A stretch of 35,529 nt of DNA from Acidobacteriaceae bacterium (GTDB taxonomy: Bacteria; Acidobacteriota; Terriglobia; Terriglobales; Acidobacteriaceae), in the NCBI GenBank assembly GCA_025449575.1, contig JANWJB010000016.1:1-35529 (forward strand). Direction: 5' to 3'. Below the pieces are notes generated by a model. That model was not told the origin of the DNA, ran no database searches, and saw only the letters and a list, made by a program, of their open reading frames with translations. Both the position numbers and the translations under genes were made by a program. This document shows positions 28,066-35,335 of the stretch, piece after piece; position 1 is the stretch's first letter; each line of letters opens with the position of its first letter.

Positions 28066-28139
28066 TTGAGGAACATGCCCTCGTCGAAAGCCTTCGTCAA
28101 GAGCAAACGAAGGCTTCTCAAGATTGTTCGCCAATTTGC

Positions 28140-28335
28140 GGGCAGGAAGATTCTGCGAGGACACCTTCGTCATACATTCGGCACGCTGCAGAAGGCCAAT
28201 GGGGAAGATGGGAAGACTGTCCAGGAACTCCTAAGGCACGCGAACAGCAGGATTACGCTGGAGGTGTCCACGCAAGCCGTCACCTCGCACAAACCAGCCG
28301 CAGAGAGCAAGGTTCGCACGCATCGAACGCGAAGT
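28140..28335 (+). pseudogene. Relic: C-terminal end of a tyrosine recombinase (phage-type integrase)
   Basis: The frame reads GHLRHTFGTLQKANGEDGKT, then VQELLRHANSRITLEVSTQA and VTSHKPAAESKV. This matches the last part of site-specific tyrosine recombinases (FRHTFGTLLKANGEDVKTVQELLRHANSRITLEVYTQAVTSHK). The box-II arginine and the later histidine are present. The position of the catalytic tyrosine is serine (TCC at 28267-28269). Most of the catalytic domain and the arm-binding domain are missing. With the insertion-sequence relic it marks past mobile DNA in this region. Confidence 0.75.
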
Positions 28336-28583
28336 GATCTCCCGCGGCATCGTCCTTTCCGTTCGGGATCTGTCTCGCAAGTTGATGCGCCTTATCCGCG
28401 CCTACTCTAAAAATACCTGCTCCTTCAAATGGAAGTACTCTAACCTGAAACGTCGTATCGCCGTATAACAATGAATTCACTGCGACAGGCCACTAGATCT
28501 CTCCCGCTGCCAGGCGTCACTTGCATGGATCCGAAGCCAGACAGTTCCATTTAATTCTGTCTCTATGAAAGCGCCGATATCCC

Positions 28584-29798
28584 TTACGCGTGCGGCGCAT
28601 AGCTCGCTTCAACCAGAACGTCCTCTTCCGCCGAGACTAAGGTTGCGGTTCCTATAGCGGAAAGCGGGCAATGTTCGATAATTTCGATTCCATAGCCTTC
28701 GAGCGCGACGATCCTGCGAGGATGATCTGTCAATAGCCGGATGCGCCGAAGACCGAGGTCGAGCAGGATCTGAGCCCCTATTCCGACTTCACGTTGTACG
28801 CGCCGGCGGTGCTCCGGGCTGGTGAAATCGTTCTCCTCGCGATGGAATCGAAGCTTATCGGTGCCATGGACGTTCTCGAATGCAAGCCCAAGCGAGTTCT
28901 GGTGGAGATAGATGAGCGCTCCATAGCCCTCATCTGCAATTCGCTGTAAGGAGGCTCGAATATAAGAGGCGCACTCGCACGACGTGGCTCGGAACACGTC
29001 TCCAGCGAGGCAATGAGTGTGCATGCGAACCAGCACCGGCGCGTCTGAGCGGCTTAAGTCACCGCGTACGAGAGCCACATGTGACTCTGCGTCAAGGTCG
29101 GAGCCATAAGCGATCATCGAGAATTCACCAAACTCGGTCGGCAATGCAGCCTCGCCTTTGCGATGAACACAGCGTTCCTGAGCCATCCGATAGCGAACTA
29201 ATTCTGCCACCGTGATCATCTTCAGTTCATGCTCCATGCAAAAGCCAATGAGATCCGGCACTCGTGCCATGGTCCCGTCGTCGTTCATGATTTCGCAAAT
29301 CACGCCTGCAGGCGTTAAGCTGGCCAGCCTGGTCAGGTCCACGGATGCCTCTGTCTGTCCGGCCCTTACGAGCACCCCACCATTTTGCGCCCGTAGGGGA
29401 AATACATGGCCCGGGCGACCAAGATCGGAAGGGCGTGCCTGGGGATCAATTGCACAACGGATGGTCTCGGCACGGTCATAGGCCGAGATACCTGTAGTGA
29501 CTCCCCGACCCAGGGCATCGATTGATTCCGTAAATGCGGTGCCGAAGCGTGCCGTGTTTTGTGTGCTCATCGGCTGCAGACGAAGGTAATCCAAACGTTC
29601 GCCTGTCATGGCGAGGCAAATAAGCCCGCGGCCATACTTGGCCATAAAGTTGATTGCTTCGGGAGTAATCCGTTCCGCCGCCATAGTGAGGTCGCCCTCA
29701 TTCTCGCGGTCTTCATCATCGACAACCACAACCATGCGGCCAGCGCGAATCTCCTCGATGGCTGTCTGGACATCGGTAAACGGAGAGCTTCTGTCCAT
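28584..29798 (-). CDS. RibBA-like fusion protein with altered active sites (DHBP synthase + GTP cyclohydrolase II)
   Basis: A 404-aa protein; the ATG at 29798 has GAGG 8 nt upstream and gives the usual N-terminus, so the longer track start is not used. Residues 1-205 are a DHBP synthase domain with [29 protein letters not shown] and [10 protein letters not shown]. The metal-binding His of the RibB family (GGHTEA in E. coli) is Gln148 here (RAGQTEA). Residues about 215-390 are a GTP cyclohydrolase II domain. The zinc cysteines are kept (C263, C274, C276), but QEGRGIGL is replaced by QNSLGLAF, and the acceptor Asp aligned with E. coli D126 is Val334. A normal RibBA would feed riboflavin synthesis from ribulose 5-phosphate and GTP. 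This copy may be a divergent paralogue with another role. No riboflavin gene or FMN riboswitch is seen nearby. Confidence 0.85.
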
Positions 29799-30099
29799 GA
29801 GATGACCTCGTTGTAGACACAGGCTGACGACGCGCGGAGAACGCCTGCCCATATTTGCCGCACTCCCGACAGCTATTGGCGCTCTCGGGCACATCGAACA
29901 GCGCACTCATTCGTCAGCTAACGACAATGTAGTGCGGAGACGGCCCGCAGTTGTCAGCATGCTGTCATCGGATTGTCACGAGGTTGAGACGCGAGGTTGC
30001 AGCCACCAGCAATGATTTGCACGAAGGAGATATAGCAATTCTGGCCCAGACGCCTGAATGCCTCATGAAACCGAATACCCGTTCAACAAGGCATTGATG
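29799..30099. other. 300-nt intergenic region upstream of the RibBA-like gene
   Basis: This region holds the TGTCA triple repeat and a CGAGGTTG-5 nt-CGAGGTTG direct repeat (about 29979-29999). An SD-like AAGGAG near 30025 on the + strand is not followed by a convincing gene. The 62-aa + frame (30058-30246) overlaps the cupredoxin 3' end antisense and has no domain. No FMN riboswitch core was found. Confidence 0.5.
29951..29979 (+). promoter_or_regulatory. Pho-box-like triple direct repeat (OmpR-family binding site candidate)
   Basis: TTGTCAG-CATG-CTGTCAT-CGGA-TTGTCAC. The core TGTCA occurs at 29952, 29963 and 29974, an exact 11-bp period. PhoB and other OmpR-family regulators bind such head-to-tail repeats. 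It lies about 150-180 nt upstream of the RibBA-like start and just past the 3' end of the cupredoxin operon. As written it points along the + strand, away from the RibBA-like gene. Confidence 0.6.
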
Positions 30100-30831
30100 T
30101 CAGTGGAGGGAATAAGGCGATTCGCTGTCCAGGGGGTACTCCTGACCGTACATATCGCTATGAGGTATTGTTCCGGCGCCCGCTATCGGAGCCTTGAGCA
30201 CATTGAGGTTAACCGCGCGGTTCGAAAAATGCAGAGGACGGCTTAGGCCGTCGAGGAAGGACTGAGGCACGCCCTCGATCCAGACATGCAATTTGTAGTC
30301 GCCTGGAGGAATACCGCGAAGCAGGACTGAATCTTTTCCATCAGCTATCGCGTAGAGAGGCGTGCTGAGAGCGATGACGACAGCGCTCATTTCCGGATGG
30401 ATATTGCAGAATATGTAGGAAACGCCTGCCATCGAGAATCTTACCGACTTACTCGAGCCTGCCTCGTAAAGACCCAAATTAAATCGTTTTCCACCAAAGA
30501 GAGAAAAAACATTATGGAAGAAAGGATCTCTGTTAGGAAACTCAATGACACTTCCTACAGGGACTACTTGCAAATGGGGAATGAACGTGCGGTTCTTCTG
30601 GAGCAACGTGTAATGACCGTGAGGAGGGAACGAAAGAGCCGGTGTGCCTGTCTGCGGCTCCAGCCAAATCACGACCGGCACGGCGCGATGCTTTCCTGGC
30701 AGTGAGGAAACGATGCTAAGACGCAACTCCGCAGGCATGCCCGCTGCGCGAGGACTTTGAGTGTAGAGGATTCCAGGCGCCAACACCACAGCGTAGAGAA
30801 TCCACTCTCCGAATCTCCCTTTTCTCGTCAA
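30100..30831 (-). CDS. Periplasmic cupredoxin (plastocyanin-like, methylamine-utilisation type)
   Basis: A 243-aa exported protein with a signal peptide (WILYAVVLAPGILYTQSPRAAG). The mature part contains VIEFPNRDPFFHNVFSLFGG and, 35 residues later, GVSYIFCNIHPEMSAVVI. H106, C142, H145 and M148 form a complete type 1 copper site. A C-terminal Ig-like strand set with IPPGDYKLHVWIEG follows. This plan is that of plastocyanin/methylamine-utilisation-like proteins. The TTG start overlaps the stop of the outer-membrane protein gene (TTGA), so the two are coupled. It could carry electrons or bind copper in the periplasm; no redox partner gene is visible beside it. Confidence 0.82.
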   Translation of the reverse strand: MTRKGRFGEWILYAVVLAPGILYTQSPRAAGMPAELRLSIVSSLPGKHRAVPVVIWLEPQTGTPALSFPPHGHYTLLQKNRTFIPHLQVVPVGSVIEFPNRDPFFHNVFSLFGGKRFNLGLYEAGSSKSVRFSMAGVSYIFCNIHPEMSAVVIALSTPLYAIADGKDSVLLRGIPPGDYKLHVWIEGVPQSFLDGLSRPLHFSNRAVNLNVLKAPIAGAGTIPHSDMYGQEYPLDSESPYSLH

Positions 30832-32435
30832 AATTGATATCCCGCTCCCAGACCGATGATATTGCTGCGCGCCGGCGAGCCAATAACCGGGGAACTCGTG
30901 AGGTGCCGATATTCCAGAGAGAATTGCAAATAGGCGCTGGGACTGTAGATTACATTGCCGGTATAGGTGCGATTTCTAGAAAGATTCTGATAGACAGGGC
31001 CACGTGAAACCGCATATTGTCGCAGCTCATCGGCGAAAGCATTGTCGATTCCGAAGGCAGCATTCAATTCGAGTCGTTCGGAGAGCTTCTCTTTCAATTG
31101 AGCCCAACCTCCGACATCGTCCAGCGGGCGGAAATAATAGCCGCCTGAATCGGTATCGATGCGGTAGGCGAAATCCTTGTAAGCGCCCCCCCCGAGTCCC
31201 CCGAGCGCCTGTCCACGATAGAAGTTTCCGGTAAACTCCAGACGAGCCGGCAGAAAAAGATGGGCATCGAGGGTACCTGCCCAGGAATCAAAGCTATGTC
31301 CCAGCGGACTGGAGGAATGAGGAGCAAAATATCCACCTACGCCGAAATGACTATGGTCTTTGTGGTGATTTACGATGGGCCCTCGAAGCTCAACACGCGC
31401 TTCGACACCGGGCCACCGGCTTTCCTCGGCGCTGCTCGGGGGAATTGCCGTAAAGATCCCGGAAGGGGGTGCGGTCGGCGATAGGGGCGCATCGCCGACA
31501 TCGATCAAAGCAGCCTGCAGCCGGACGCCATGAGAATCGGCCTGGCCGAAATCCTGAATGATGCCCACCTGCGGGTTCCAGCTCCATAGGTTGCCGGACC
31601 ATGCTAGGGCTGGTATGGCCACGGCTGTCAGCGAAGTTGGCACGTCCGGACTGAAGATTGGACGATCGAGCGCGAAATAGGCTTCCGTATGTTCCCATCG
31701 CAGGCCCGCGTGAGCGGTGCGCAGGCGGAGCAGAGTCGTATTGCTGTTATAGTACCCAGAATAAACCGCCGGCGAATTGCTGGACGACGGATTGCCATCA
31801 AAATCGACGCGAAGATCGGCGTAACTGCGTGCGCCAAACAGATGAGGCCCGCGAGCGTCGATCCCGAGTATCGTCTGGCGAACGGTGGCCCCGGTGCTAC
31901 CGGAGCCCGGAAGGGCGACTGTCGGCGTCGCCGCCATATCAACTGCGCTCGTATTTACAAAACCGTTCAGCAAAAGCAGGCCGGTAACCTTTACCGGATA
32001 TTTGGATTCACTCTCCACTTTTGATTGTGCCTGGGTCGCAATCTGAGACTCCTGCATTGCCTGGCGGTCGCGAATATCCTGGATCGCCGTAGAGGTGGCT
32101 TCGGGCTTAGCCTTAGAGGAAGAAGTCGAAACCGGAACAGAAGGCGGTTGCGTACCAGCGCTCGATCCGCTCTGCGATATCTCACGCTGCAATTCACTCA
32201 ATTGCTTCCGCATTTCGTCCAACTGCCGCTGTGACTGTTCCAGTTGAGTTTGGGTGCGGGCCATGGCGGCCGTTAATTTCTGAATCTGCTGTGATACGTT
32301 CTCTTGACTGGTGGCTTGGGCACAGACAGAATTCGTTGCAGATCCGAAAGCCACTATGAGGAGGGGCAGGACTCTCCATAAGCCTCGAGGATCGAGACCG
32401 GTTCGCCGAGTTGGATTATGTCCGCACATTCTCAT
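30828..32435 (-). CDS. Outer-membrane beta-barrel protein with N-terminal coiled coil (porin-like)
   Basis: A 535-aa protein. It has a signal peptide (VLPLLIVAFGSATNSVCAQA), a heptad-rich coiled coil at about 48-88 (IQKLTAAMARTQTQLEQSQR and on), a Ser/Pro-rich linker and then a barrel of alternating strands from about 145 to the end. The C-terminus is NIIGLGAGYQF, with a final Phe for BAM recognition. The layout resembles DcaP-type trimeric porins (periplasmic coiled coil, then barrel). Strand segments such as FGARSYADLRVDFDGN and LRWEHTEAYFALDRPIFSP support a porin fold. It overlaps the sensor kinase gene by 20 nt and the cupredoxin by 4 nt. The solute is unknown. Confidence 0.78.
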   Translation of the reverse strand: MRMCGHNPTRRTGLDPRGLWRVLPLLIVAFGSATNSVCAQATSQENVSQQIQKLTAAMARTQTQLEQSQRQLDEMRKQLSELQREISQSGSSAGTQPPSVPVSTSSSKAKPEATSTAIQDIRDRQAMQESQIATQAQSKVESESKYPVKVTGLLLLNGFVNTSAVDMAATPTVALPGSGSTGATVRQTILGIDARGPHLFGARSYADLRVDFDGNPSSSNSPAVYSGYYNSNTTLLRLRTAHAGLRWEHTEAYFALDRPIFSPDVPTSLTAVAIPALAWSGNLWSWNPQVGIIQDFGQADSHGVRLQAALIDVGDAPLSPTAPPSGIFTAIPPSSAEESRWPGVEARVELRGPIVNHHKDHSHFGVGGYFAPHSSSPLGHSFDSWAGTLDAHLFLPARLEFTGNFYRGQALGGLGGGAYKDFAYRIDTDSGGYYFRPLDDVGGWAQLKEKLSERLELNAAFGIDNAFADELRQYAVSRGPVYQNLSRNRTYTGNVIYSPSAYLQFSLEYRHLTSSPVIGSPARSNIIGLGAGYQF

Positions 32436-34311
32436 CTGGCGTTACCTGATCGTGACGGTCATCGTCTGACGCATTCGAGTGATCCTGCACCGGAAGTTCG
32501 CGCGCCACCCTCATCTGGAAGATCGTCTCACCGGGGCGGCTGCTAAGCAAAATGACCTCCCCACCGTGCTCAACAGCAATGCAGTGCGCCAGCGTGAGCC
32601 CGAGTCCGGTGCCTTTCTGCTTCCCTTCGCTCACGAACGGATCGAAGAGACTCTCGCGAATTGTCTCCGGAACTCCTGGACCGTTGTCGATCACATTGAC
32701 GATTACCTGACCTTCCTGCGTCTCCAGAATGACCATGACTTTGGCTGACATTCCCATGCCACGGACAGCCTGGCAGGCGTTGAGCAGCAGATTAAAGATG
32801 GCGCTCTCGATCTGCTTCCTGTCAGCGACAACAGCGGTCTCCGTAGGTTCGCCATACTGCGTCGTCAGCGTTACCCCCTCCGCATCGGGGTGGGCCCGAA
32901 CCAGAGATGTCGCCCGTTCAAGCAGGGTTGCCATTAGCTCTGGCTGCCTCCTCATGCTGGCGCCAGTCCGGCTGAAGATCAGCAGCGATTCGATCATGTC
33001 CGTTGTACCGTTCACGGCTGCCCGGATATCACCAAAAATCTCGGCACGCTCCTTGGGAGAGAACCGATCCGAAGCGAGAAACTCCGCGTTCGCGAAGATC
33101 GCGGCGAGATAATGCCGGAGATCGTGAGAAACAGAACTCGCCATCCGGCCGATGGTCGCCAGCCGTTCGGATTCGAGCACCGCCTGATTCGCCTTCTGGA
33201 TCTCACCGCGCATGCTGGAAAAGGCAGCGCTCAAATGCCGCACTTCCCGCGTGCCATGGCGCGGCACACGGTGTTCCACGTCCCCAAGACCAAAAGCCCG
33301 AACACTCCGGGAGAGTTCTTCGAGCGGGTGTGTCACCAACCGCGAGATGACAATCATCAGCATCGTGCCCGAGAGAAGCACCAGAAAACCCGCGACAAAT
33401 ACCATGCGGTCGGTGCGGCTGATCGAACGCTCCGCAGGCTCGAAGGATTTCAGAACGACCAGCTGCAATGAAGATGTAGCTGTTGCGGAGAGATCCTCGG
33501 TGGCCGAGAGAAATTGAACATTTCCCAATTCGACCGTAGCAGGTGCCCGGGACATGCTGGAAAGCGCGCCAGATTGCCTTGCCAAACTTGCCTGCACATC
33601 TGGCGCAAGCGTGCTGGCTACAACTTGGCCACCGCTCAAAAAAGTCGCTTCAACTCCCGCGGGCTGACTGATTTGGCGGACCGTGCGCTCAATGGAAACA
33701 CCGCTCAAGACGTATCCCAACAGCGTCCCATCCCGGTCGCTACCGAAATAGAGGGGCCGTAGCGCACAGGCATAGAGCGATCCGCTATCGATCAGATAGT
33801 GCTTCGTCGGAGAAGCCAGCAGAGCCTTCATCCCCTGACGGAGGGTGTTGTCCGCAGGCGCTTTTTTGGCATAGGCCGCCACGACCCGGCCGCTCGGATC
33901 GGCCAGCATAAAAAGGTCTGTGCCACTGAGTTGCCAGAATTCGACGGCTCCATTCTGAATGGTGAGGTCGTCCCCGCTGGTCATCAGCGCCTTCAGCGTG
34001 GGCAGTTCGGCAAGAAGGGCATTCTGGCGCGCTAGGGCTTTGAGTCTGTCGGCCTGCAGGTTCTGGAAGGCAACGACCGAGCGATTCAAGTCCTGGGAAA
34101 AGTCGTTCGTCACCTGTTCCCTCAGTTGGTGGCGAACCAGCAAAACACTGGCGACAGTCACAAGGGCAATCACCAACGCCATACTGACGACAAGAAGCAC
34201 ATACGTTCGAAGACCCTGCTTCTCTTGTGTACCCGCTACCTGCCTGAGGGCTTCGCCTGCGGGACGCTGGACGGGATGAGCCTCATGGGACAAATTTGTA
34301 TCCTGCGCCAT
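32416..34311 (-). CDS. Sensor histidine kinase (dCACHE-like, HAMP, HisKA, HATPase)
   Basis: A 631-aa membrane kinase. TM1 is at about 37-59 and TM2 at about 302-325; the 240 residues between them form a periplasmic dCACHE-like sensor with FMLADPSGRVVAAYAKK and GYVLSGVSIERTV. HAMP is at about 323-375. The H-box is ASSVSHDLRHYLAAIFANAE, with the phosphorylated His396. The N-box is AIFNLLLNACQAV, followed by VIDNGPGVPE and the F/G2 boxes DPFVSEGKQKGTGLGL. It overlaps the response regulator gene by 29 nt and the outer-membrane protein gene by 20 nt. It would sense a periplasmic small molecule and phosphorylate the adjacent regulator. Confidence 0.92.
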   Translation of the reverse strand: MAQDTNLSHEAHPVQRPAGEALRQVAGTQEKQGLRTYVLLVVSMALVIALVTVASVLLVRHQLREQVTNDFSQDLNRSVVAFQNLQADRLKALARQNALLAELPTLKALMTSGDDLTIQNGAVEFWQLSGTDLFMLADPSGRVVAAYAKKAPADNTLRQGMKALLASPTKHYLIDSGSLYACALRPLYFGSDRDGTLLGYVLSGVSIERTVRQISQPAGVEATFLSGGQVVASTLAPDVQASLARQSGALSSMSRAPATVELGNVQFLSATEDLSATATSSLQLVVLKSFEPAERSISRTDRMVFVAGFLVLLSGTMLMIVISRLVTHPLEELSRSVRAFGLGDVEHRVPRHGTREVRHLSAAFSSMRGEIQKANQAVLESERLATIGRMASSVSHDLRHYLAAIFANAEFLASDRFSPKERAEIFGDIRAAVNGTTDMIESLLIFSRTGASMRRQPELMATLLERATSLVRAHPDAEGVTLTTQYGEPTETAVVADRKQIESAIFNLLLNACQAVRGMGMSAKVMVILETQEGQVIVNVIDNGPGVPETIRESLFDPFVSEGKQKGTGLGLTLAHCIAVEHGGEVILLSSRPGETIFQMRVARELPVQDHSNASDDDRHDQVTPDENVRT

Positions 34312-35020
34312 AGATTGTCAGCAGATGTTTCGGGTTTGCAGGATCGGACTCTAGCTTTTGACGCAATTTAAGGATCTGATTATCCACCGTGCGAGTGGTC
34401 GGATAAAGATTGTATCCCCAGACCTCGTTCAGCAGGACATCGCGTGTGAGCACTCGCTCAGCATTCTCGCTGAAAAACTTCAGGAGCTTGAACTCATGAG
34501 CGGTAAGCACGACAGAATTCCCGCCGCGACGGACCGTCATTTTCTTAAAGTCGACTTCGCAATCAGCGAAGCGATAGATCGTCGGCGGCGTGGGCTTACG
34601 CTGTCTGCGGATCGCTGCCTGAACGCGGGCCGTGAGCTCTCTTGGACTAAAGGGCTTGGTGACATAGTCGTCGGCCCCCAATTCAAGAAGTAACACCTTG
34701 TCCGCAACGTCCGTGATTGCGCTGAGCACCACAACCGGAGTCTCAGCAGACAACTGCTTGAATGTCTGACAGAGTTCTCGTCCGGAGATATTGGGAAGAA
34801 TCAAATCGAGTATGACCGCGAGCGGGTGTTCGCGGCGAAACAGATCGAGACCCGTCTGACCGTCGCCGGCGACAACGGCAGAGTAGCGCTCCTGACTAAA
34901 GACTCTGCGCAGAACCTTCTGCATACGTGGATCGTCTTCAATGATAAGGATGGCGCCCAGACTCACCACCGGTAGAATGTCGTTTTGGGCTTCTGTTGCC
35001 AATTGCATCTCTCGGATCAT
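34283..35020 (-). CDS. OmpR/PhoB-family response regulator
   Basis: A 245-aa protein. The receiver domain shows AILIIEDDPRMQKVL (acidic pair at 29-30), the phosphoacceptor D72 in VILDLILPNISG, S100 in VVVLSAITD and K122 in TKPFSP. The C-terminal winged helix (about 150-245) has VVLTAHEFKLLKFFSENAER and TVDNQILKLRQKLE, followed by IYGAGYKFVP. The ATG at 35020 has a GAGG 9 nt upstream. It is the first gene of the operon. The TTGTCAT-CTGA-TTGTAAT element 66-83 nt before its start is a likely autoregulatory site. Confidence 0.93.
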   Translation of the reverse strand: MIREMQLATEAQNDILPVVSLGAILIIEDDPRMQKVLRRVFSQERYSAVVAGDGQTGLDLFRREHPLAVILDLILPNISGRELCQTFKQLSAETPVVVLSAITDVADKVLLLELGADDYVTKPFSPRELTARVQAAIRRQRKPTPPTIYRFADCEVDFKKMTVRRGGNSVVLTAHEFKLLKFFSENAERVLTRDVLLNEVWGYNLYPTTRTVDNQILKLRQKLESDPANPKHLLTIYGAGYKFVP

Positions 35021-35335
35021 GATCTAGATCCTCACCAGTCTATTCTTGTCGAAACCGTCCCGTTTTCGCTTAAAATAAGCAAGAAATTACAATCAGATGA
35101 CAATTTGGGGCTTTGGCTCCTGTTCGAGCTGCTTGTGCTCTTCTCTGCCTCGCCGCTCCAACTACGGCAAAGCTGCCTGTATGAAACTCGTGCGCTCGTA
35201 TCCCCCATTCCGAGGGTCATCTGTGACAATCTTCCGGAGAGTAGTGTCGTAAGAGAGCCGTGCGATGAGCGACAGCGAAGATGCTCGTACATTCCGAAAG
35301 ACGCCGCAAACATTTTTGCTTCGGCGATGTCGCCA
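35021..35335. other. 315-nt intergenic region upstream of the response regulator
   Basis: This is the promoter region of the four-gene operon; it holds the 11-bp-period repeat and one extra TTGTCAC. The + strand frame 34985-35434 and the minus frame 35032-35313 have no recognisable domain, and I do not call them genes. Confidence 0.5.
35086..35103 (-). promoter_or_regulatory. TTGTCAT-CTGA-TTGTAAT direct repeat in the operon promoter
   Basis: Read on the minus strand, two 7-mers with an 11-bp period lie 66-83 nt before the response regulator ATG. They have the same design as the triple repeat at 29951-29979. TTGTCA with TTATTT about 19 nt later could also serve as a weak -35/-10. A single further TTGTCAC half-site lies at 35223-35229 on the same strand. 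Confidence 0.5.

Follow-up and report, generated by a model that had tools for sequence, protein, structure and literature searches.

A tandem TGTCA repeat before a second ribBA gene of an Acidobacteriaceae bacterium as probable operator of the neighbouring two-component regulator

Direct-repeat operators are general for response regulators of the OmpR/PhoB family. Among described systems, those closest to the locus considered here are PhoB with the Pho box of Escherichia coli, the regulators MtrA, RegX3 and KdpE, and duplicated riboflavin supply genes. PhoB sites are 22 bp long with two 11-bp repeats (PMC3978041), and PhoB recognises TGTCA(T/C) (PMC3264566). Extra copies of ribB or ribBA are found, e.g., in Vibrio and Aeromonas, and such duplications are discussed in PMC10012899. 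For Acidobacteria, a system of the kind described below was not found in a literature search in which articles were judged by title and the start of the abstract.

The locus lies in a 35,529-nt stretch of DNA (the window) from an Acidobacteriaceae bacterium. With the Pho box it shares tandem TGTCA(T/C) half-sites, an 11-bp period and, here as a prediction, a winged-helix response regulator bound head to tail near the −35 region. It differs in that the response regulator (RR) is a separate paralogue that is not linked to pst, in that pstS genes lack the site, and in that the target promoters have TGACA on their own strand, 20 bp before the −10 element; moreover, the predicted targets are envelope and ribB(A) genes and the sensor of the kinase is dCache-like. 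MtrA, RegX3 and KdpE are by sequence the closest family models and solved structures for RR, which, however, scores below all equivalog cut-offs and has its own helix type and other operon partners. As in Vibrio and Aeromonas, a second ribBA or ribB copy would be under its own control, but here operator and synteny link it to a two-component system, and several relatives keep only its RibB part.

The repeat and its surroundings

The genes flanking the repeat are all on the minus strand, in the order RR, histidine kinase (HK), porin-like gene, CupL gene, gap with the repeats, and ribBA. The features referred to below are:

35084–35103, minus: site before the RR gene, TTGTCATCTGATTGTAATTT, predicted to serve autoregulation; its repeats read TGTCA on the operon strand; common to 59 of 69 related operons
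34283–35020, minus: OmpR/PhoB-family response regulator RR, the predicted operator binder; the operon family conserves its recognition helix TVDNQILKLRQKLE
32416–34311, minus: sensor histidine kinase HK, by domain content (dCache-like periplasmic sensor, HAMP, HisKA, HATPase)
30828–32435, minus: porin-like operon protein, so assigned from its sequence (signal peptide, coiled coil, predicted outer-membrane beta-barrel)
30100–30831, minus: cupredoxin-like secreted protein, called CupL after its CNIHPEM motif; last gene of the RR operon
29951–29979, minus: predicted RR operator GTGACAATCCGATGACAGCATGCTGACAA, three TGACA in exact 11-bp phase, unique in the genome and conserved in five of five genomes
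29926–29931, minus: TACATT, predicted −10 element for ribBA; the last TGACA lies exactly 20 bp upstream
28584–29801, minus: second ribBA-like gene of the genome, starting with ATG at 29801 and encoding a DHBP synthase domain and a GTP-cyclohydrolase-II-like domain

The domains of RR and HK are those expected, and their catalytic motifs looked intact when inspected; the recognition helix of RR, TVDN[QH]ILKLRQKLE, is a conserved type of its own in the operon family. CupL has no Pfam or NCBIfam match.

The triple sits in the gap of about 300 bp between the end of the CupL gene at 30100 and the ATG of ribBA. On the plus strand 29951–29979 reads TTGTCAGCATGCTGTCATCGGATTGTCAC, with TGTCA at 29952–29956, 29963–29967 and 29974–29978, which on the minus (ribBA) strand is three TGACA. 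The exact 11-bp phase, pointed out in the original prediction together with an OmpR/PhoB-family regulator some 4 kb away, was confirmed on checking the coordinates, and the RR gene indeed lies about 4.3 kb from the repeats. By chance, only about 4e-5 TGTCA triples at such a phase are expected in the window (both strands), in which TGTCA is the sole pentamer present three times at this phase. In the whole 3.03-Mb assembly the triple has a single match, even when one mismatch is allowed, and the reversed pattern has none. The arrangement is that of an OmpR/PhoB-type direct-repeat operator, i.e., of at least two direct half-sites spaced by about one helical turn (10–11 bp).

The operon of RR, HK, porin and CupL is widespread in relatives within the Acidobacteriaceae: the porin is found at E ≤ 1e-60 in 101 of 200 family genomes, and the operons of 75 relatives were retrieved for comparison. 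The order RR-HK-porin-CupL-ribB(A) is present in five genomes, namely that of the window and those with loci L193, L194, L195 and L196. The original prediction had called for a search for the repeat in related genomes and had named a lack of conservation in close relatives as counting against it; all five genomes keep the triple, as TGACA-N6-TGACA-N6-TGACAA on the ribB(A) strand of the gap before ribB(A). It is the only well-aligned piece of this gap, which varies from 117 to 298 bp and is otherwise largely unalignable. Expectation, uniqueness and conservation together rule out a chance origin. A riboswitch or other RNA leader was also rejected, no Rfam family being matched in the window at gathering thresholds.

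Some further observations were made at these loci. The porin of G159 (locus L193), a genome of another genus, is 78% identical to that of the window versus only 42% for the porin of the same-genus genome G002; from these identities the RR operon locus may have moved horizontally. Just beyond ribBA, a short open reading frame on the plus strand (28066–28410) is similar to the C terminus of tyrosine recombinases, with a below-cut-off match to Phage_integrase, and is perhaps a remnant of island mobility. In one relative a group II intron directly follows the operon (L155:8189-8475). At L147, L148, L154 and L155, 40–160 bp downstream of the cupredoxin-like gene, the same TGACA repeats and promoter are followed by a conserved GC-rich hairpin (GAACGGGC...GCCCGTTC) and then by GATCCCGGGATC; the hairpin, for which there is no Rfam match at these loci, may belong to a leader or a small RNA under regulation.

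Promoter geometry and orientation

The Escherichia coli Pho box is read from the TGTCA strand, opposite to the TGACA-strand promoter predicted here. It had been supposed that the repeats point away from ribBA, and from this orientation repression, action from a distance or a plus-strand RNA had been proposed. The comparison of relatives indicates otherwise. At all five ribB(A) loci a TAnnnT element follows the last TGACA at exactly 20 bp on the ribB(A) strand; in the window it is TACATT (29931–29926). At 18 reverse-oriented sites downstream of CupL genes the same element stands at 20 bp in 12 and at 21 bp in 3, with just two further occurrences in the 45 bp scanned (binomial p ~1e-14 to 1e-20). 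Since the predicted promoter with TACATT faces ribBA, the operator is oriented toward this gene and not away from it. With TAnnnT taken as the −10 element, the predicted positions of the repeats are about −37, −48 and −59, the last repeat covering −37 to −33, and transcription of ribBA would start near 29919, leaving a leader of about 118 nt before the ATG.

This geometry bears on two other ways of reading the site. The repeats could drive an unseen plus-strand RNA, antisense to the operon end: read as TGTCA they do point that way, and the site of RR itself is read in the TGTCA direction by its operon. On the operon-end side, however, there is neither a conserved element nor a conserved −10 in the five genomes, the distance to the operon end varies from 28 to 125 bp, and the window has no Rfam match. 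A plus-strand antisense promoter was rejected for want of any conserved element on that side, and such an RNA is extremely improbable. The main alternative on the same site is that the same RR represses ribBA by covering the −35 region. The overlap of the site with the predicted promoter would fit repression too, but the repeats lie upstream of the −35 region and barely touch it, so that the −10 element and the start site are left free; the spacing is constant to within one base pair, as it is where a promoter depends on an activator; and these promoters lack a conserved TTGACA at the usual distance of 17 bp. Repression is thus unlikely, and activation of ribBA is the reading pursued below.

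The sites upstream of RR genes have the opposite orientation, with a conserved AATA/AATG at 42–43 bp or TAnnnT at 38–40 bp, which we read as a second, more distant geometry. It should be noted, as a point against a single regulator, that one activator must fit both kinds of site, in opposite orientations and at different spacings.

Phosphate regulator or neighbouring regulator

The original prediction had seen in the repeats the geometry of a Pho box. Taken in the strict sense, a Pho box means that the phosphate regulator PhoB of the bacterium binds them and that ribBA belongs to the phosphate regulon. The half-sites TGTCA(T/C) and the 11-bp period do match those of PhoB sites (PMC3264566; PMC3978041), so that the geometric likeness is real, and the genome encodes a PhoB-like response regulator (G000:C37, 236 bits on the PhoB model). 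Membership nonetheless fails. The adjacent RR reaches only 186.6 bits on the PhoB model, against a cut-off of 296.2, and in five relatives with pstS located a different response regulator with 236–248 bits is encoded within about 3 kb of it. An 11-bp repeat of TGTCA or TGACA was found in none of 17 regions upstream of pstS in relatives (700 bp each, up to one mismatch). Moreover, CTGTCAT does not read along the predicted transcription of ribBA: it is the TGACA strand that holds the conserved −10-like element, the reverse of the Escherichia coli arrangement; the site upstream of RR does read in the CTGTCAT direction, by orientation only. Finally, the sites drop to background in genomes without the RR operon (see below). 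Membership in the Pho regulon was rejected on the pstS-upstream and PhoB-model results, and we hold a canonical Pho box to be very unlikely.

What the comparison does support is a tie between the repeats and the neighbouring RR. Of 69 operons, 59 have TGTCA-N6-TGTCA, allowing one mismatch, in the 350 bp before the RR gene, where 0.003 sites per 350 bp are expected from the coding sequence of the same loci; the other 10 operons have no forward site at this threshold. The window has this site as TTGTCATCTGATTGTAATTT (35103–35084); as reverse complement it is closely similar to the first two repeats of the ribBA triple. Whole genomes were scanned for TGACA-N6-TGACA-N20-TAnnnT, with one mismatch tolerated and the reversed pattern as control, which gave 131 matches versus 21 in the control for 25 genomes with the operon, and 9 versus 12 for 25 family members without it. 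Many of the matches in operon-carrying genomes cluster near the operon. The nominal p for the difference between genomes with and without the operon is ~1e-22, which, the genomes being related and their independence therefore overstated, should be taken to mean "very unlikely" and not literally.

Of the original proposal, the OmpR/PhoB-type site thus stands, by geometry and by this comparative link to the adjacent RR, and the Pho box as a membership does not. It is conceivable that the motif is bound by some other regulator encoded in the same island. In the window's own assembly there is one exact target site only, that before ribBA, and a search by DNA for the rest of the island gave no match there, the assembly being 83% complete and the divergence of the DNA possibly too high. 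As the contig ends just upstream of RR, the remaining regulon is not visible in this organism, and its content has to be read from relatives.

The riboflavin gene, the putative regulon and its meaning

The ribBA of the window is 62% identical to the other copy in the genome, on contig C49. EGRG and DxR are motifs of importance to GTP cyclohydrolase II; both are missing from the GTP-cyclohydrolase (RibA) half of the window protein, which suggests that this half is inactive. Other RibBA copies in the family also lack the motifs, and a stand-alone RibA of the island keeps both. Several relatives have an island copy that consists of RibB alone. From the lack of motifs and these RibB-only copies, it is likely that the island copy supplies the RibB reaction. 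G159 has a stand-alone gene for GTP cyclohydrolase II (L306:9521-10183) within its regulated island, beside radical-SAM and methyltransferase genes, so that both first-step riboflavin enzymes are encoded there.

Directly downstream of matching promoters in relatives are genes for a nucleotidyltransferase (PF14907), an SLBB polysaccharide export protein, a small cupredoxin, RibB(A), a PhyH dioxygenase, B12-radical SAM enzymes, a glycosyltransferase (GT87), a secreted protein of about 355 amino acids of unknown family, and flippase-like membrane proteins (a label read from the sequence). With sites before glycan, export, cupredoxin and radical-SAM genes the regulon looks envelope-related, and we infer that the targets form an island for an envelope glycan or a secreted product.

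Most likely, then, the repeats are the site at which the neighbouring two-component regulator, not PhoB, switches on ribBA and envelope genes. In the window specifically, the triple is with high probability the operator of RR (34283–35020), which would bind its three half-sites and activate the second ribBA copy. A periplasmic signal would activate HK (32416–34311), HK would phosphorylate RR, and RR would dimerise on the tandem half-sites, head to tail over the three repeats. As the last half-site, at about −37 to −33, would overlap the −35 region of the minus-strand promoter with the −10 element TACATT, RR could recruit RNA polymerase next to this region and turn on the second ribBA copy in a class-II-like activation. 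The same RR would bind the oppositely oriented pair of repeats before its own operon (35103–35084) and, in relatives, would also serve genes near the operon for envelope glycans, export, cupredoxins and radical-SAM enzymes.

More broadly, and with somewhat less confidence, the sequences point to an undescribed two-component regulon that is widespread in this family of the Terriglobia: one RR would use the same tandem operator in two orientations and two fixed geometries (TGTCA-N~39–41-[−10] for its own operon and TGACA-N20-[−10] for its targets), and would connect an additional enzyme of riboflavin-precursor synthesis with genes for envelope glycans and redox functions (cupredoxin, radical-SAM). 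The case also cautions that look-alikes of the Pho box can belong to regulators other than PhoB. The repeat motif gives a putative regulon that is legible from sequence alone across a large and poorly studied soil family, for which a defined operator, a promoter geometry and a named regulator are now available, and in which an extra ribB(A) copy would be linked to envelope and redox functions.
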